This document shows positions 34,683-43,781 of a stretch of 64,000 nucleotides of DNA, in pieces. Both the position numbers and the translations under genes were made by a program. Under the pieces are notes generated by a model. That model was not told where the DNA came from. It ran no database searches and was given only the letters and a program-made list of their open reading frames with translations. This DNA is from Oscillospiraceae bacterium (lineage in GTDB: Bacteria > Bacillota > Clostridia > Oscillospirales > CAG-272), in contig SVTL01000002.1 in assembly GCA_015063795.1 (NCBI GenBank), forward strand, positions 62,001 to 126,000, written 5' to 3'. Positions within the stretch are counted from its first letter, which is position 1. Each line of letters begins with the position of its first letter.

Positions 34683-35549
34683 TTAATCAGTAATGTTAAA
34701 ATACTCCATAGAACTCTTGATTAAAGAATCAATTAACTCTTTGTGCTTTAAATACTCATCAAACCCTGATAACTGAATACTATATTCTTTCCAACGAGGT
34801 GTATAGGATATATCCAAGCCGCTTTCTTCACATTTTTGAACAATTTCGGGATTTTCGTTACCCTTATATACAATGTATAAGTAGTTCTTTTTCGGTCTGA
34901 ACATAAGGAAGTTTTTTGATATACCATCCTTCATCATTCCAATATAGAATTTATTGTACTTTAATTCATATCCGCTCGCATATTCCTTTACACTGTCAAA
35001 TATCTTATCAACATTTTGAAGCATTTTGGGAGTGCTTCTGCCTTCCCAATATTTTCTGTCAGTTGCTTCATACTGTTCATCTTCATCGTTAACAATAGTT
35101 ACTCTATCGAGCACTTTTGTAAAAGCAAGAGAAATATCATCACCCTGTTTATATGCAGTTAATTGTAATGCTATAAGAGGAATTGCACCATTAAACAAGG
35201 AAATAACATTCATAAATCGACCAGTGATTTCTTCGGCGACAATTACAGCACAATGGTCATATTGTGGGTACCTCTTTCTCTCTGTATCCCAATATTCAAT
35301 TGTTCTAATAATGTGGCTAGGGTCAGTAGCACCTAATTGTACTTCTACCTCATATCGAGTACCATCATCATCTGCGAGCAGTAAATCAAGCCTGCCTCCC
35401 AATGGTTGAATTTTTTCTCTTTGTATTGGAGATAAATCGCCCAACCCCAACACAGAAGGGTCATCAAAAATGAAACTTTGAATCAAATCTTCCTTTATTT
35501 TGGAATTATTTTTAAGTTGTACTTTTTCCATTTTAACGATTTTAGCCAT
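34683..35549 (-). CDS. PD-(D/E)XK nuclease-like protein
   Basis: A 288-residue soluble protein. An RLDLLL strand with Asp55 is followed by YEVEVQ with Glu69 and Gln71, the D...ExQ form of the PD-(D/E)XK nuclease core. The C-terminal part (FLMFRPKKNYLYIVYKG onward) resembles the DUF5655 type of domain, with low certainty. The coding sequence is clearly more AT-rich than the neighbours and sits alone between its own promoter and terminator, as expected of a transferred gene. Roles in defence or DNA recombination are possible; none is shown. Confidence 0.7.
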   Translation of the reverse strand: MAKIVKMEKVQLKNNSKIKEDLIQSFIFDDPSVLGLGDLSPIQREKIQPLGGRLDLLLADDDGTRYEVEVQLGATDPSHIIRTIEYWDTERKRYPQYDHCAVIVAEEITGRFMNVISLFNGAIPLIALQLTAYKQGDDISLAFTKVLDRVTIVNDEDEQYEATDRKYWEGRSTPKMLQNVDKIFDSVKEYASGYELKYNKFYIGMMKDGISKNFLMFRPKKNYLYIVYKGNENPEIVQKCEESGLDISYTPRWKEYSIQLSGFDEYLKHKELIDSLIKSSMEYFNITD

Positions 35550-35651: not shown

Positions 35652-38279
35652 TTACTTGTTGTCTTTAATAGCAGCCTGAGCAGCGGCCAGTCTTGCGATC
35701 GGCACGCGGAAGGGCGAGCAGGATACATAGTCAAGGCCGAGGGCGTGGCAGAACTCAACGGACGTGGGATCGCCGCCGTGCTCGCCGCAGATACCAATGT
35801 GGAGGTTGGGATTCTCAGCCTTACCCAGCTTGATGGCCATATCCATCAGCTTACCAACACCGGACTGGTCCAGCTTGGCGAAGGGATCGTTTTCGAAGAT
35901 CTTGGTGTCGTAGTAGGCGTTGAGGAACTTACCGGCATCGTCACGGGAGAAGCCGTAAGCCATCTGAGTCAGGTCGTTGGTACCGAAGCAGAAGAAGGCA
36001 GCTTCCTTGGCAACGTCGTCAGCGGTCAGACAAGCTCTGGGGATCTCGATCATGGTACCGACCTCATACTTGAGATCTGCACCGGCAGCGGCGATCTCGG
36101 CATCAGCGGTAGCAACCACGATGTTCTTAACGAACTTCAGCTCCTTGGCCTCGCCGACCAGAGGAATCATGATCTCGGGAACGATCTTCCAATCGGGATG
36201 AGCCTTCTGAACGTTGATCGCAGCGCGGATGACAGCCTTGGTCTGCATCTTGGCGATCTCGGGATAGGTAACGGTCAGACGGCAGCCGCGGTGGCCCATC
36301 ATGGGGTTGAACTCATGCAGAGAGGTAATGATAGCCTTGATCTGCTCAACGGTCTTGCCCTGAGCGGCAGCGAGAGCGGCAATATCAGCCTCTTCGGTGG
36401 GAACGAACTCATGGAGCGGAGGATCCAGGAAGCGGATGCAGACGGGAGTGCCTTCCAGAGCCTCATAGAGAGCCTCAAAGTCGCCCTGCTGGAAGGGAAG
36501 GATCTTGGCGAGAGCCGTTTCTCTCTCTTCAAGGGTGTCGGAGCAGATCATCTCGCGGAAAGCGGCGATACGGTCAGCCTCGAAGAACATATGCTCGGTG
36601 CGGCAGAGACCGATACCCTCAGCGCCCAGCTCGCGAGCCTTCTTGGCATCGGCAGGCGTGTCGGCATTGGTACGCACCTTGAGAACTCTGAATTTGTCGG
36701 CCCAAGCCATGATGCGGCCGAACTCGCCGGCGATCTCGGCGTCAACGGTGGGGATGATGCCCTCGTAGATGCAGCCGGTGGAGCCGTCGATGGAGATGAA
36801 GTCGCCCTCGTTGAAGGTCTTGCCGCCGAGAGTGAACTTCTTGTTGGCTTCGTCCATGTTGATCTCGCCGCAGCCGGAAACGCAGCAGGTACCCATACCG
36901 CGAGCAACAACGGCAGCGTGAGAGGTCATACCGCCGCGGACGGTGAGAATACCCTGAGCAGCCTTCATACCGCTGATGTCCTCAGGAGAGGTCTCAAGAC
37001 GGACGAGGATGACCTTTTCGCCCTTTTCGTTCCAGACAACAGCGTCGTCAGCGGTGAACACGACCTTACCGCAGGCAGCGCCGGGGGAAGCACCGAGACC
37101 GCGGCCGAGGGGCTTGGCAGCCTTGATGGCCTTGGCATCGAACTGAGGATGGAGCAGGGTGTCCAGGTTACGGGGATCGATCATGGCAACAGCCTTCTTC
37201 TCATCGATCATGCCTTCGTCAACCAGGTCGCAGGCGATCTTGAGAGCAGCCTTAGCGGTTCTCTTACCGTTTCTGGTCTGGAGCATGAAGAGCTTACCGT
37301 TCTCGATGGTGAACTCCATGTCCTGCATATCTCTGTAATGATTCTCGAGGATGCCGCAGACCTTGTTGAACTCGGCAAAAGCCTCGGGGAACTTCTCAGC
37401 CATTTCGGCGATGGGCATGGGAGTACGAACGCCGGCAACGACGTCCTCGCCCTGAGCGTTTACGAGGAACTCGCCCATCAGACCCTTAGCGCCGGTGGCA
37501 GGGTCACGGGTGAAGGCAACACCGGTACCGCAATCGTCACCCATGTTACCGAAGGCCATCATCTGCACGTTAACGGCAGTACCCCAGGAGTAGGGAATGT
37601 CGTTGTCGCGGCGATAGACGTTGGCGCGGGGGTTGTCCCAGGAACGGAAGACGGCCTCAACGGCGCCCATGAGCTGCTCCTTGGGATCGGTGGGGAAGTC
37701 CTTGCCGATCTTGGCCTTGTATTCAGCCTTGAACTGGCCGGCGAGAGCCTTCAGGTCGTCAGCATTCAGCTCAACGTCCTGGGTCACGCCCTTTTCTTCC
37801 TTCATTTTATCAATAAGCTCTTCGAAGTACTTCTTGCCGACTTCCATAACGACGTCGGAGTACATCTGGATGAATCTTCTGTAGCAGTCCCAAGCCCAAC
37901 GGGGGTTGCCGCTCTTGGCAGCGATGGACTCAACAACCTGCTCGTTCAGACCGAGGTTGAGGATGGTGTCCATCATACCGGGCATGGAAGCGCGGGCACC
38001 GGAACGAACCGAAACGAGAAGGGGATTTTCAACGTCACCGAACTTCTTGCCGGTGATGCCTTCCATCTTGTCGATGTATTCCATGATCTGAGCCTGGATA
38101 TCATCGTTGATCTTGCGGCCGTCCTCATAGTACTGGGTGCAGGCCTCGGTGCTGATGGTGAAGCCCTGGGGAACAGGAAGACCGATCTTGGTCATTTCCG
38201 CGAGGTTTGCGCCTTTTCCGCCGAGCAGCTCACGCATGGAAGCGTCGCCCTCGGAGAAAAGATAAATAAACTTTTTCAT
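35652..38279 (-). CDS. ppdK: Pyruvate, phosphate dikinase
   Basis: A full-length 875-residue PPDK converting PEP, AMP and PPi to pyruvate, ATP and Pi and the reverse. The N-terminal nucleotide domain has LLGGKGANLAEM. The swivelling phosphohistidine domain has GGMTSHAAVVARGMG with the catalytic His. The C-terminal PEP/pyruvate domain has GLCRTEHMFF and GICGEHGGDP. Anaerobic Clostridia often use it in PPi-linked glycolysis and for carbon flow between PEP and pyruvate, which would feed malate/fumarate formation. GGAGG precedes the start. Codon use is strongly biased, suggesting high expression. Confidence 0.97.
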   Translation of the reverse strand: MKKFIYLFSEGDASMRELLGGKGANLAEMTKIGLPVPQGFTISTEACTQYYEDGRKINDDIQAQIMEYIDKMEGITGKKFGDVENPLLVSVRSGARASMPGMMDTILNLGLNEQVVESIAAKSGNPRWAWDCYRRFIQMYSDVVMEVGKKYFEELIDKMKEEKGVTQDVELNADDLKALAGQFKAEYKAKIGKDFPTDPKEQLMGAVEAVFRSWDNPRANVYRRDNDIPYSWGTAVNVQMMAFGNMGDDCGTGVAFTRDPATGAKGLMGEFLVNAQGEDVVAGVRTPMPIAEMAEKFPEAFAEFNKVCGILENHYRDMQDMEFTIENGKLFMLQTRNGKRTAKAALKIACDLVDEGMIDEKKAVAMIDPRNLDTLLHPQFDAKAIKAAKPLGRGLGASPGAACGKVVFTADDAVVWNEKGEKVILVRLETSPEDISGMKAAQGILTVRGGMTSHAAVVARGMGTCCVSGCGEINMDEANKKFTLGGKTFNEGDFISIDGSTGCIYEGIIPTVDAEIAGEFGRIMAWADKFRVLKVRTNADTPADAKKARELGAEGIGLCRTEHMFFEADRIAAFREMICSDTLEERETALAKILPFQQGDFEALYEALEGTPVCIRFLDPPLHEFVPTEEADIAALAAAQGKTVEQIKAIITSLHEFNPMMGHRGCRLTVTYPEIAKMQTKAVIRAAINVQKAHPDWKIVPEIMIPLVGEAKELKFVKNIVVATADAEIAAAGADLKYEVGTMIEIPRACLTADDVAKEAAFFCFGTNDLTQMAYGFSRDDAGKFLNAYYDTKIFENDPFAKLDQSGVGKLMDMAIKLGKAENPNLHIGICGEHGGDPTSVEFCHALGLDYVSCSPFRVPIARLAAAQAAIKDNK

Positions 38280-38526: not shown

Positions 38527-39519
38527 ATGCTGACCATAACGGAAAATCCGCGCCTGCCGAAGGCATATCGTGCGGACACGGCGCTTTGCTTCAAAAAAAC
38601 ATCCGAGATTGTGAAATGTCTGTTCGCCGCTTTTCCCGAGCAGACGGACATCCGCGCTTTGAACACGGCGTTTGTTCTGGAACAGGAGACCGTGGAGAAG
38701 GCGCTGGCACTCTGCCCGACCTGTGGGAAGATCGTTATCGGAGAAGAGGTCATCATCACCAATGCCGGCGGAAAGGGTGAGGTGAAGCTGGAGGCCCCTT
38801 CGGTTTTGAGCGTGCAGGATTACCTCGAGGCGGCTGAGGCTTACCGCAAGCGCGTTCTGCTGTCCTTCGCGGAGAAGGGCGTTGTTTTCCAGACCTTTGA
38901 CGGCGTGGTGATCCATCCCGATGCGGTCATCGGCGAGGGGACTTTGATCTTGGCGGGAACGCAGATCGGACAGGACGTTGTCATCGGCGAAAACTGCGAG
39001 ATCGGCCCGCGTTCCCATCTCATCTCCTCCACGGTGAAGGACAACACGATCCTCATCGACACCCGTGTGGTGGAGGCGGTGATCGGTGAAAACGTCAAGA
39101 TCGGTCCATACTGCAACATACGTCCCAATTCCACCATCTGCGACGGCGTGAAGATCGGTGATTTTGTCGAGGTAAAGAACTCGGTCATCGGCCGCGACAC
39201 CCATGCCTCTCACCTGACCTACATCGGCGACAGCGACGTGGGCGAGCGTGTCAACTTCGGCTGCGGCGTGGTCACCGCCAACTACGACGGATACAGCAAA
39301 TTCCGTACCACCGTGGGCGACGATGCCTTCATCGGCTGCAACACCAATCTGGTGGCACCCGTGACGGTGGGCAAGGGCGCTTACACCGCCTGCGGCTCGA
39401 CGATCACCGACGGCGTTCCCGAAAACAGTCTCGGTCTTGCCCGTGCCAGACAGGTGAACAAGGACGGTTGGGCGGACTCCTTCCGCGCCAAGAAAAAGGC
39501 CGAGGGGAAAATCAAATAA
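38527..39519 (+). CDS. GlmU-like acetyltransferase lacking the uridyltransferase domain
   Basis: A 330-residue left-handed beta-helix acyltransferase. From about residue 115 it reads as the C-terminal half of GlmU, the glucosamine-1-phosphate N-acetyltransferase, with family active-site residues visible: Arg in NIRPNST, Lys in VEVKNS, His and Tyr in ASHLTYIGDS, Asn in VNFGCG and Lys in YSKFRT. The 250-residue N-terminal nucleotidyltransferase is absent; about 110 other residues with a CPTCGK stretch take its place. It precedes pth and mfd, where full glmU usually lies in Firmicutes. UTP transfer must come from another protein. Confidence 0.82.
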   Translation: MLTITENPRLPKAYRADTALCFKKTSEIVKCLFAAFPEQTDIRALNTAFVLEQETVEKALALCPTCGKIVIGEEVIITNAGGKGEVKLEAPSVLSVQDYLEAAEAYRKRVLLSFAEKGVVFQTFDGVVIHPDAVIGEGTLILAGTQIGQDVVIGENCEIGPRSHLISSTVKDNTILIDTRVVEAVIGENVKIGPYCNIRPNSTICDGVKIGDFVEVKNSVIGRDTHASHLTYIGDSDVGERVNFGCGVVTANYDGYSKFRTTVGDDAFIGCNTNLVAPVTVGKGAYTACGSTITDGVPENSLGLARARQVNKDGWADSFRAKKKAEGKIK

Positions 39520-39555: not shown

Positions 39556-40266
39556 ATGAGTATCTTTGATCTTTTTAAGCAAATCGAATCGCAGAAAACG
39601 CCGACCGGTCCGGTGGAGGCCATCGTGGTCTGCCTCGGCAATCCCGGCGACAAATACACCTTCACGCGGCACAACGCGGGCTTTTTAGCCGCCGATTATC
39701 TGACGCAGAAATGGAGCTTCCGCATTGACCGCTTGAAGTTTCATGCCTTGACGGGCGAAGTAACCGTTGTGGGAAAGCGTGTCCTGTTCATGAAGCCGCA
39801 GACGTATATGAACGCATCGGGGCAGGCGGTGAAGGAAGCGGTTGATTTTTATAAACTCGATGTCAAAAACGTGATTGTCCTCTGCGATGACATCACGCTT
39901 GCGCCCGGGCGTCTCCGCATCCGCGAAAAGGGAAGCGCCGGCGGGCATAACGGACTGAAAAGCATCATAGAATGTATGGGAAGCGATGCGTTTCTGCGTG
40001 TCCGCATCGGTGTGGGCGAACGTCCCGATCCGCGGTATGATCTGGCCGATTGGGTGCTGGGAACCATCCCCGAATGCGACCGTCAGCCCATGTTCGATGC
40101 CATTTCCCACACGCCGACCGCTCTGGAAATGCTGCTTCAGGGACAGCTTCAGAAGGCGATGGGGCTGATCAACGGCATCGGCAAGCCTGCTCCTGCGCCG
40201 AAGGAAAAGAAAGAAAAAGCAGAACCCGATTCTGAGGATAAAACCGAAACGAAAGAGACTCCATGA
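39556..40266 (+). CDS. pth: Peptidyl-tRNA hydrolase
   Basis: A 236-residue bacterial-type Pth that releases tRNA from stalled peptidyl-tRNA. The family motifs are CLGNPGDKYTFTRHNAGF with the catalytic His, FMKPQTYMNASG, and KGSAGGHNGLKS. An extra 20 residues precede the fold and a charged Lys/Glu/Pro tail of about 45 residues follows it, both unusual but compatible with function. The end overlaps mfd by 4 bases. Confidence 0.95.
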   Translation: MSIFDLFKQIESQKTPTGPVEAIVVCLGNPGDKYTFTRHNAGFLAADYLTQKWSFRIDRLKFHALTGEVTVVGKRVLFMKPQTYMNASGQAVKEAVDFYKLDVKNVIVLCDDITLAPGRLRIREKGSAGGHNGLKSIIECMGSDAFLRVRIGVGERPDPRYDLADWVLGTIPECDRQPMFDAISHTPTALEMLLQGQLQKAMGLINGIGKPAPAPKEKKEKAEPDSEDKTETKETP

Positions 40267-43200
40267 ATCACATCACGCAAGCCATCAGGCAGAGCGGGGA
40301 ATACCGCTCCATCCTGTCTCTTGCCGAGGAGATCGCACTGCGGAAGGGCAAAACGCCTGCCGCCGTCACCGGACTGTGCGAGGATGCGCGCAAGGCCTTC
40401 ATCGCCGCCTTCGGGCTGGATACGAGGGAGAAGCGAGGCGAGCCCATTCTCTGCATCCTGCCCGATGAAAAGGAAGCGAACCGTCTGGAAGCGGCACTGA
40501 CCGCCTGCGGACTGGATGCAGTCATCTACCCGTCAAGAGATTTCAACTTCCATAACATCACAGCCTCTCATGAGTACGAGCATGAGAGGCTTTCGGTGCT
40601 GAACGGCATCGTGGAGGGCAGGCACGACATGATCCTGACCGTCCCCGATGCGCTGCTGCAGTATACCATCCCGTCAGAGGTTCTCATCGACAGCGTTTTC
40701 ACCCTGCGCCGCGATCATGAGGCATCGCCCGAGGAGCTGGTTCGCTTTTTGTCCGAGAACGGCTATATCCGCGTGGATATGGTGGACGGCGTGGGGCAGT
40801 TTTCTCAGCGCGGCGGCATTTTGGACGTCTTTCCGCCTTTCGGAGGTGAGCCTGTCCGCATCGAATTTTTCGATACCGAGGTGGAAAGGATCGCTTCCTT
40901 CGATCCGCTCACCCAGCGAAAGACCGCCGAGCTGAAGGAGATCGATCTGATCCCTGCAAGAGAGGTCCTTGTCAGTGCTGAACAGCGTAAGGAGCTGGCG
41001 GCCGCCATCGACGGACTGATCAAGAAGTGCAGGAGCGAAGAGAAAAAGGATCTTCTGCGCGAGGAGAAGGAGCTGGTGAAAAGCGGCGCCGATCTTCCTT
41101 TTATCGACAAATACATCTCGTTGGTCTATCCGCAGAAGGAGTGCCTGCTGAATTATTTTTCCGAGGATGCACTCTTCCTTCTGCAGGATTACAACGCGGT
41201 GAAAAGCCGCATCGAGGGCATGGCGTTCCGAAGCCGCGAGGCAATGGAGCCGCTGGCCGAGGACGGCGTGCTGTCTCTGAAGAGCGCCGAGCACCATCGG
41301 TACGGCGAGGATCTGGAGCATTTTCTCTCCCGCCATTTCGGGCTGATGATGTCTGGCTTTTCGATCTCTTTGGGAGGAATGCGCCTGTCGGGAAGCTTCA
41401 GCTTCACCACCAGACAGACCGTTTCAGTGTGCGACAATTTTCCGCTTCTCCGTGAGGAGCTGGACGATCACCTCCGCGCCCGCTACAAGATCCTGCTTTC
41501 CTGCGAGAGCCGCAAGGAGGCGCAGAACCTGCGGGATGTGCTGATGAATGCGGGCATCGTTGCCTTTCTTTCGGAAAGCGTGAACGATCCGGAGGAGGGG
41601 CGTCCGCTGATCGTGCACGGCGAGGGCGCGTTCTCCTTTGAAATGCCGACCGACCGCTTTGTCTGCCTGTCGCTCTACCGCGGAGGCGGCCTGTACGGAA
41701 GCGGCACGCTGAAAAAGGGGAAGAAGGCACATAAGAAAAAGAGCGCGCAGGAAAAGATCCTGTCCTATGCCGACATCAAGGTGGGCGATTATGTCGTTCA
41801 CGACACCCACGGCATCGGACGCTATATGGGCCTGCAGACGCTGAGCGTGGAGGGCTTCATCCGCGATTTTGTCAAGATCCAGTATGCGGGCAGTGACATG
41901 CTCTACCTCCCCTGCAATCAGCTGGATTCTCTGGCCAAATACATCGGAAGCGATTCGGACAACGAGACGCTGCGCCTCTCGAGGATGGGAGGAAGCGAGT
42001 GGGGCAAGACCAAGCAGAGAGTCAAGAGCGCGGCCAAGGATATGGCCAAGGATCTGATCGATCTGTATGCCCGCCGTCTGCGGAAGCCGGGCTATGCCTT
42101 TTCGGCAGACGATGCGATGCAAAAGGAGTTCGAGGAGGCCTTCCCCTATGAGGAGACCGACGGACAGCTGGAGGCCATTGAGGACATCAAGCGCGATATG
42201 CAGCAGCGCCATCCCATGGACCGTCTGCTCTGCGGCGACGTGGGCTTCGGCAAGACCGAGGTGGCTCTCCGCGCCGCTTTCAAGGCGGTGAGCGACTCAA
42301 AGCAGGTGGCGATCCTTGTGCCGACCACCATTCTGGCCCTGCAGCATTACCAAACGCTGTGCAGCCGCATGAGAGCCTTTCCCGTCAGAGTGGATATGCT
42401 CTCGCGCTTCCGCAGCAAAAAGGAGCAGACCGAGTCTCTGCGCAAGCTGAAGAGGGGAGAGACCGATATCATCGTCGGCACCCACCGGCTGGTATCCAAG
42501 GACGTGGAGTTCAAGGATCTTGGGCTGGTCATCATCGATGAGGAACAGCGCTTCGGCGTGGCGCACAAGGAGCACCTGAAGCAGCTGTCGGAAAATGTGG
42601 ATGTTCTGACCTTGACCGCCACGCCCATTCCCCGCACGATGAACATGGCCATGAGCGGCATCCGCGATATGTCGGTGCTGGAGGAAGCCCCCCAGGACCG
42701 TCAGCCCGTGCAGAGCTATGTGACCGAATACGACGAGACCATCCTGCGCGAGGCCATCCGGAAGGAGCTTCGCCGCGGCGGTCAGGTCTTTTACCTGCAC
42801 AACAACATCGACACCATCGATGCCTGCGCGGCCCGTGTGGCGGCCATGGCACCCGACGCCCGCATCGCCACCGCCCACGGTCAGATGGATAAGGAATATC
42901 TCTCCGACATCTGGCGTGAGCTGATCGAGGGCGAGATCGACATCTTTGTCTGCACCACCATCATCGAGACCGGTGTGGACGTTCCCAATGCCAACACGCT
43001 CATCATCGAGAACGCCGACCGCATGGGACTGTCCCAGCTTCACCAGATCCGCGGACGCATCGGACGCTCCTCCCGCCGTGCCTATGCCTATTTCACCTTC
43101 GGCAAGGGCAAGGTGCTTACCGAGATCGCCGTCAAGCGTCTCAGCGCCATCCGCGAATATGCCGAGTTCGGCTCGGGCTTCAAGGTGGCTCTGCGCGATA

Positions 43201-43781
43201 TGGAGATCCGCGGCGCGGGCAACCTTCTCGGCGAGGAACAGCACGGTCACATGGCCAAGGTGGGATATGACATGTATATGAAGCTGCTCAACGAGGCGAT
43301 CTTGGAGGAAAAGGGCGAGCTGAAACAACCGAAGCCCGAATGCACCGTGGACATCAAGGTGGATGCGTATATCCCCGAGCGGTATATCAAGAGCGGCATG
43401 GCGCGCGTGGACGCTTATAAAAAGATCGCGCTGATCCGCTGTGAGGAGGATCGAAGCGACATTGCTGACGAGCTGAACGACCGCTTCGGCAAGATGCCGC
43501 CGTCGGTAAGCCGTCTGCTGGACATTTCGCTTCTCCGCAGTTTGGGAAGCGAGAGCGGCATGAAGAGCATCGAATACAAAAACGGCTGTCTGCTCTTCTA
43601 TCCCCATCAGATGAACGCGTCTCTGTGGGCGAGGCTGATCCCCGAACGGCAGGGACGCTTGCTGCTCAATGTCAGCAGCCGGCCGTATGCCAGCCTGCGC
43701 GTGAAGAGCGGGGAAGAGTTCCTGAACCAAGCCTGCGCGCTGCTGAGCGACTATCTGCGTTTGAGCGGTGAGGAAAATTGA
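40263..43781 (+). CDS. mfd: Transcription-repair coupling factor Mfd
   Basis: A 1172-residue Mfd, normal length. It removes stalled RNA polymerase at lesions and recruits UvrA. Domains in order: degenerate UvrB-like N-terminal module, the RNA polymerase-interacting domain around ADIKVGDYVVHDTHGIGRYMG (about residue 505-525), then the RecG-like translocase with Walker A GDVGFGKT (about residue 658), DEEQ box IIDEEQRFG, TATPIPRT, and the C-terminal TRCF domain. Start ATG overlaps the pth stop. Confidence 0.97.
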   Translation: MNHITQAIRQSGEYRSILSLAEEIALRKGKTPAAVTGLCEDARKAFIAAFGLDTREKRGEPILCILPDEKEANRLEAALTACGLDAVIYPSRDFNFHNITASHEYEHERLSVLNGIVEGRHDMILTVPDALLQYTIPSEVLIDSVFTLRRDHEASPEELVRFLSENGYIRVDMVDGVGQFSQRGGILDVFPPFGGEPVRIEFFDTEVERIASFDPLTQRKTAELKEIDLIPAREVLVSAEQRKELAAAIDGLIKKCRSEEKKDLLREEKELVKSGADLPFIDKYISLVYPQKECLLNYFSEDALFLLQDYNAVKSRIEGMAFRSREAMEPLAEDGVLSLKSAEHHRYGEDLEHFLSRHFGLMMSGFSISLGGMRLSGSFSFTTRQTVSVCDNFPLLREELDDHLRARYKILLSCESRKEAQNLRDVLMNAGIVAFLSESVNDPEEGRPLIVHGEGAFSFEMPTDRFVCLSLYRGGGLYGSGTLKKGKKAHKKKSAQEKILSYADIKVGDYVVHDTHGIGRYMGLQTLSVEGFIRDFVKIQYAGSDMLYLPCNQLDSLAKYIGSDSDNETLRLSRMGGSEWGKTKQRVKSAAKDMAKDLIDLYARRLRKPGYAFSADDAMQKEFEEAFPYEETDGQLEAIEDIKRDMQQRHPMDRLLCGDVGFGKTEVALRAAFKAVSDSKQVAILVPTTILALQHYQTLCSRMRAFPVRVDMLSRFRSKKEQTESLRKLKRGETDIIVGTHRLVSKDVEFKDLGLVIIDEEQRFGVAHKEHLKQLSENVDVLTLTATPIPRTMNMAMSGIRDMSVLEEAPQDRQPVQSYVTEYDETILREAIRKELRRGGQVFYLHNNIDTIDACAARVAAMAPDARIATAHGQMDKEYLSDIWRELIEGEIDIFVCTTIIETGVDVPNANTLIIENADRMGLSQLHQIRGRIGRSSRRAYAYFTFGKGKVLTEIAVKRLSAIREYAEFGSGFKVALRDMEIRGAGNLLGEEQHGHMAKVGYDMYMKLLNEAILEEKGELKQPKPECTVDIKVDAYIPERYIKSGMARVDAYKKIALIRCEEDRSDIADELNDRFGKMPPSVSRLLDISLLRSLGSESGMKSIEYKNGCLLFYPHQMNASLWARLIPERQGRLLLNVSSRPYASLRVKSGEEFLNQACALLSDYLRLSGEEN

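Follow-up and report, generated by a model that had tools for sequence, protein, structure and literature searches.

Published accounts treat GlmU as an essential enzyme with two functions and as a drug target. Its N-terminal uridyltransferase (UTase) domain, which contains a nucleotide-binding loop, is linked by a helix to a glucosamine-1-phosphate (GlcN-1-P) acetyltransferase (AT) half, folded as a left-handed beta-helix (LbH). Related steps are also performed by separate proteins. AmgK and MurU form a salvage pair, an anomeric kinase and a uridyltransferase, and the eukaryotic-type ‘UDPGP’ or ‘UAP’ proteins (PF01704) are separate pyrophosphorylases. ‘GlmR’ (or YvcK; family TIGR01826) is a reported accessory uridyltransferase for GlcNAc-1-P (PMC10128056, PMC13046274) that works beside GlmU. 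The N-acetylhexosamine 1-kinase ‘NahK’ of bifidobacteria makes GlcNAc-1-P (PMC6264712). Finally, a PF00483 family designated ‘GalY’ (Amuc_0031), whose genes share clusters with galE in 15 genomes, was predicted in 2017 to replace GalT and to act on Gal-1-P (PMC5583593).

The protein that we describe is, we are close to certain from its sequence, derived from GlmU and devoid of the uridyltransferase domain. It is encoded in ‘the window’, the whole 64,000-nucleotide stretch of DNA that was analysed, where the relevant features are:

38527–39519, + strand: AT-only glmU; intact ORF with an ATG start, 330 aa
38527–38811, + strand: residues 1–95, probable vestige of the lost UTase domain; without detectable homology or a confidently modelled fold
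38812–38874, + strand: residues 96–116, the helix that links the two domains in GlmU (phmmer against GlmU chains; structure model)
38875–39516, + strand: residues 117–330, the LbH GlcN-1-P acetyltransferase half and C-terminal tail (NCBIfam, alignments, model, Foldseek)
39121–39177, + strand: stretch bounded by the catalytic-site residues R199 and K217, each invariant in the 29 rows
39211–39222, + strand: H229 to Y232, both invariant in 29 rows
39262–39339, + strand: C246 to C271, equated with the S. aureus GlmU pair C379/C404 (alignment to 9dqf)
39556–40266, + strand: pth, the 3′ neighbour; kept in G051, G077 and G139
40263–43781, + strand: mfd, after pth; kept in the same three genomes
35652–38279, − strand: ppdK, divergent and upstream; kept in the same three genomes

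The names pth, mfd and ppdK are those that we presume from their translations. The window also holds, at 34683–35549 on the − strand, a 288-aa ORF that looks nuclease- or transposase-like by eye.

NCBIfam GlmU models cover the window protein from about residue 98 to 320. One of them, TIGR01173, aligns residues 101–318 with its positions 231–449 of 452 and gives 244.7 bits, under its cut-off of 366.85. Pfam detects hexapeptide/LbH domains above their cut-offs, and no nucleotidyltransferase domain. The top sequence match in the PDB is 9dqf (E 3.3e-54), by its title S. aureus GlmU. An AlphaFold2 model, made from 29 aligned rows, is confident for the linker helix (residues 96–116) and for the beta-helix, and the best 37 Foldseek matches of this model are all GlmU chains; the fold is the LbH of GlmU type, and linker helix and AT half together span residues 96 to about 320. 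Eight AT residues (R199, K217, H229, Y232, N243, N252, K258 and R306) are invariant in the 29-row alignment of relatives, and they line up with chain 4aa7, the AT of E. coli. We take them to be the equivalents, in position and in role, of E. coli R333, K351, H363, Y366, N377, N386, K392 and R440; H229 is presumably the catalytic base. Set against the structures of bifunctional GlmU from E. coli, S. pneumoniae and S. aureus, then, the window protein has the same AT half, linker helix, fold and AT residues, and its gene adjoins pth and mfd, as in several relatives, but it has neither the UTase domain with its nucleotide-binding loop nor a model score over the cut-off. It very likely acetylates GlcN-1-P. 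An earlier note on this DNA had read the gene as the AT half of GlmU standing alone at a glmU-pth-mfd locus, with the AT active-site residues kept, and both statements are borne out. It had also seen the UTase domain replaced by some 110 unrelated residues; the domain is indeed gone, but 110 is too many, because residues 96–116 are the GlmU linker helix. C246 (39262–39264) and C271 (39337–39339), the first invariant and the second nearly so in the 29 rows, align with cysteines of S. aureus GlmU, and we equate them with the redox-sensitive pair C379/C404, named in PMC11947611.

An HMM built from 38 intact GlmU N-domains and run on 48 sequences does not match residues 1–95 (E 2.5), and pLDDT falls below 50 over residues 1–27, 31–53 and 62–89 of the AlphaFold2 model. 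Among relatives, the stretch that precedes the AT half runs from an intact UTase domain down to almost nothing. That of G139 is clearly homologous to the UTase domain (E 2.3e-21), but has lost the nucleotide-binding loop; other longer relatives keep weak UTase traces (about E 3e-10 to 1e-1); in short ones, like the window protein, the trace is absent; and the shortest, of some 220–250 aa, start at the linker. The gene order of the window, a divergent ppdK followed by the AT gene, pth and mfd, recurs by tblastn in G051, G077 and G139. Because erosion of the UTase domain in relatives is graded, with several of these at the same locus, residues 1–95 are more likely a vestige, decayed in place, than an added or inserted domain. 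Of the 49 genomes whose AT half is separate, 18 had the part before it read; the ‘AT-only’ class itself is based on model match. Nine intact domains (L015, L018, L019, L029, L030, L033, L070, L084 and L085; E 4.6e-87 or better), which a rule based on length and motif had sorted among the degenerate ones, stand outside the erosion series. The reverse case occurs in G078 (L172) and G021 (L173), where a 335-aa frame at the same locus retains the UTase domain but its AT is cut short, the match to the acetyltransferase query covering no more than about its first 76 residues.

The assembly of the host genome comprises 2.157 Mb in 29 contigs, and is 93.7% complete. A TIGR01173 search of it found neither full-length GlmU nor a GlmU-type N-domain; the sole N-side match of more than 60 bits is a ManC-like protein (C24). 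GlmS (C26; 757.6 bits) and GlmM (C28; 512 bits) are both present, and the AT is thereby provided with its substrate. Two AT-only genomes from another family, G034 and G062, have the AT gene adjoining glmS and glmM by their coordinates, which supports GlcN-1-P as that substrate. PF00483 has three matches in the host genome: a ManC-like fusion (C24), a 305-aa protein (C21) and a GalU-like protein (C10) that scores 289.6 bits where the cut-off is 326.8. Synthesis split between proteins, GlmS, GlmM and the AT followed by a separate UTase, is the reading that we favour. The earlier note had offered a choice between such a split and an AT that acts on another sugar phosphate. The former is now better supported, given the lack of a full GlmU, the presence of GlmS and GlmM, and a candidate UTase; for the latter no positive support was found. 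The stand-alone uridyltransferase that it suggested looking for is putatively the protein on C21, and the complete GlmU that would have counted against its reading was not found in the 93.7% complete genome.

Three other weak matches to the GlmU model in the host were set aside as the lost UTase: IspD (C29:152733), which scores 223.1 bits over the IspD cut-off of 181.3, the GalU-like protein on C10, and a CysE-like protein (C29:26446), so named by reading its translation. UDPGP had been the initial guess for the UTase; PF01704 has no match in the host genome, and matches seven others of the 147 sampled (see below), including the AT-only G077 of the host family. The fusion on C24 (L002 in the host, G000) is an 816-aa frame that combines a ManC-like nucleotidyltransferase with an LbH domain; its C-terminal part, phosphomannomutase-like by guess, gave no Pfam match in the 706 residues scanned.

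The C21 protein is homologous over its full length to PDB entry 3pnn, a ‘Conserved domain protein’ (phmmer E 3.1e-83, residues 35–333 of 335), and exceeds the cut-off of no NCBIfam model. A protein of this ‘3pnn type’ is annotated as a ‘sugar phosphate nucleotidyltransferase’ in Ruminococcus albus. The gene lies 38 nt downstream of NahK on the same strand, counted from the ATG start of the 305-aa protein; the two overlap if the longest ORF is taken. The host NahK matches solved N-acetylhexosamine kinases at E 1.5e-87, and its product, GlcNAc-1-P, is the substrate of the missing UTase step. Among the 48 genomes that have both genes, candidate and NahK lie within 400 nt of each other in at least 21, a minimum because the coordinates were entered by hand, and not for every copy of every genome; in the other 27 they are not within 400 nt by the coordinates used. 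In G073, it is a GlmU N-domain that adjoins NahK, and the candidate is present elsewhere in that genome. In Subdoligranulum variabile TSDC17.2-1.1, an AT-only glmU of 247 aa is flanked by apparent ppdK, prs and pth genes, named by reading, and a separate contig carries a cluster that reads galE, candidate, NahK. The candidate adjoins a GalE-like gene, by reading, in G036, G129 and G137. No alternative acetyltransferase near the candidate was recognised by eye in ten loci.

Like AmgK and MurU, the C21 pair is a kinase and a nucleotidyltransferase side by side; it differs in that its kinase resembles the solved chains of NahK, the model matches of its second enzyme do not include MurU, and the pair goes with domain loss in GlmU. 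GalY and the 3pnn type may be the same family. The substrate of the candidate is therefore one that we infer, Gal-1-P being predicted for GalY and GlcNAc-1-P being proposed here; the C21 enzyme may be a broad UDP-sugar pyrophosphorylase.

We sampled 147 genomes from the order of Clostridia to which the host belongs, each with a completeness of 90% or more and drawn evenly from a larger group, and searched them for GlmU, UDPGP, the C21 enzyme, NahK, GlmM, GlmR, GalU and GlmS. GlmU matches were listed to about E 4e-16, weaker than the half-GlmU matches used, and on the matches listed 21 genomes have full GlmU, five have the halves apart, 20 have the N-domain only, 44 are AT-only and 57 have neither half. 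An N-domain counted in this way (25 genomes, five of them also with a separate AT half) is one found as a separate gene or without the whole AT half; G078, G021 and G100, with their gene at the glmU locus, are included. The candidate was scored as absent where its match was weak (ten cases, E 3e-7 and worse), GalU was called at E 6.3e-82 or better, and GlmM when over cut-off, with the addition of G106 (matched in two pieces), weak matches counting as lacking. So scored, the candidate occurs in 3/21 genomes with full GlmU, 2/5 with halves apart, 1/20 with the N-domain only, 39/44 that are AT-only and 41/57 with neither. Only 46 of the 147 keep a GlmU-type UTase domain among the model matches listed; the candidate is in six of these and in 80 of the 101 that do not (Fisher p 3.4e-14). 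The association persists at the level of genera (p 5e-8, 85 unmixed genera) and on permutation within families, where 70 of 88 genera are discordant and 20,000 permutations gave 54.1 on average and 68 at most (p 5e-5).

A tree of GlmM served as a stand-in for the species tree. It holds 99 of the 113 GlmM-bearing genomes; left off were 13 over-cut-off genomes that are near duplicates within a genus or were matched in part (G089, G131, G070, G104, G132, G146, G086, G097, G049, G042, G115, G114 and G024), and G106. This tree implies at least 16 changes in the UTase domain. Nine independent pairs could be drawn on starred branches; on average, the candidate runs opposite to the UTase domain in 5.8 of them and parallel to it in 0.1 (median p 0.031, with values from 0.016 to 0.375), a modest result that is supportive rather than overwhelming. 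GalU, with 13 pairs, 3.9 versus 1.3 and a median p of 0.45, is the weaker partner there. Candidate and GalU are nonetheless anticorrelated, the candidate occurring in 29/74 genomes with GalU and in 57/73 without. Among GalU-bearing genomes, it is in none of the 31 with the UTase domain and in 29 of the 43 without, and the six genomes that have both candidate and UTase domain all lack a strong GalU match. A broad UDP-sugar pyrophosphorylase able to replace either GalU or the UTase would explain both anticorrelations. Five of the 44 AT-only genomes lack the candidate: G077, which has UDPGP; G005 and G023, which have GlmR; and G004 and G074 (90% and 93% complete), in which no candidate, UDPGP or GlmR was found. 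The remaining 42, then, have at least one of the three.

Four other explanations merit consideration. Synthesis might be split as proposed and the final step fall to the GalU-like protein or to the ManC-like fusion, the 3pnn type serving only in galactose and GalNAc salvage, as the GalY reading has it. Both proteins are in the host genome, GalY was predicted to replace GalT (PMC5583593), and the candidate lies beside GalE-like genes in some relatives. We consider this unlikely all the same. Frames of the size of the fusion also appear among the matches listed in genomes with full GlmU (G061, G112, G055, G028 and G042), and so the fusion, its identity being taken here from frame length, does not track loss of the UTase. 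The 12 genomes sampled from family f11 are AT-only without exception, and a strong GalU match is missing from each of them. And neither protein would account for the link between the candidate and the state of the UTase domain, which is seen within families as well as on the tree. GlmR as the supplier of UDP-GlcNAc is much less probable still for this host. Like the candidate, it is a separate UTase for GlcNAc-1-P, and it is present in 23 of the 147 genomes, 19 of the 44 AT-only ones, G005 and G023 among them, and none of the 21 with full GlmU or the 57 with neither half. But TIGR01826 has no match in the host genome, a search in which the B. subtilis control was silent too, and a three-protein GlmR alignment has none in 40 genomes of the host family, host included, a set with no known-positive genome.

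That the AT has changed its substrate and acetylates another sugar phosphate, leaving UDP-GlcNAc to salvage by NahK and a UTase, we regard as very improbable. All but one of the 34 genomes that lack GlmM have NahK, as does the host, so that some members of the order may make UDP-GlcNAc by salvage only. The host, however, retains both GlmS and GlmM, only one of those 34 genomes is AT-only, the AT residues checked are conserved in the window protein, and the AT gene sits beside glmS and glmM in G034 and G062. A GlmU-type UTase that is present in the host and merely missing from its assembly, incomplete and in 29 contigs as this is, seems slightly less probable again: G051 and G077, AT-only genomes of the same family that are 98% and 97% complete, have no such UTase either, and by definition of the class the other AT-only genomes have none.

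On our preferred reading, the window protein would have arisen in place from bifunctional GlmU and would act solely as a glucosamine-1-phosphate N-acetyltransferase. It would convert GlcN-1-P, supplied by GlmS and GlmM, and acetyl-CoA to GlcNAc-1-P, and the distantly related 3pnn-type nucleotidyltransferase on C21 would then join GlcNAc-1-P and UTP into UDP-GlcNAc. NahK would furnish the same intermediate from salvaged sugar. A salvage pair of kinase and uridyltransferase that could finish UDP-GlcNAc would make the UTase domain of GlmU dispensable, and the domain would have decayed repeatedly in the order, residues 1–95 being its remnant in the window protein. We infer both activities, the order of events and the acceptance of GlcNAc-1-P by the C21 enzyme; co-variation and neighbourhood make it likely that this enzyme completes UDP-GlcNAc synthesis. 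The reading as a whole, an AT-only GlmU formed in place with its UTase step passed to the C21 enzyme, strikes us as probable. We lean, with less assurance, towards a wider statement: that in this order the UTase step of cell-wall UDP-GlcNAc synthesis has been handed many times from GlmU to an orphan 3pnn-type pyrophosphorylase shared with NahK salvage, and that GlmU is caught here at many stages of loss, the other domain being the one affected in G078 and G021. Our searches of the open-licence PMC literature, which leaves out most subscription papers, brought to light neither an account of AT-only GlmU in Clostridia nor one that makes the 3pnn type a GlcNAc-1-P uridyltransferase. If the reading is right, a likely role can be given to the 3pnn family, which has one structure and no function assigned, and many Clostridia would be wrongly served by annotation and metabolic models that require GlmU for UDP-GlcNAc.

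Some genomes of the sample appear to differ further. In 11 of the 57 with neither half, G127 and ten of family f9, none of the UTases sought was found. The f9 genomes (G008, G029, G043, G056, G069, G081, G092, G103, G113 and G123) have NahK and GalU, and no GlmU half, 3pnn-type enzyme, UDPGP or GlmR was detected in them; they possibly use a further kind of uridyltransferase, none of which was found near NahK by its loop motif in nine stretches. GlmM is lacking, by the threshold used, in 34 of the 147 genomes. NahK is in 33 of these 34, versus 47 of the other 113 (p 1.2e-9), and such genomes may make UDP-GlcNAc only from salvaged GlcNAc. The GlmU-type AT half is absent from 77 genomes, the 57 with neither half and the 20 with the N-domain only, and GlmM is still present in 44 of them.
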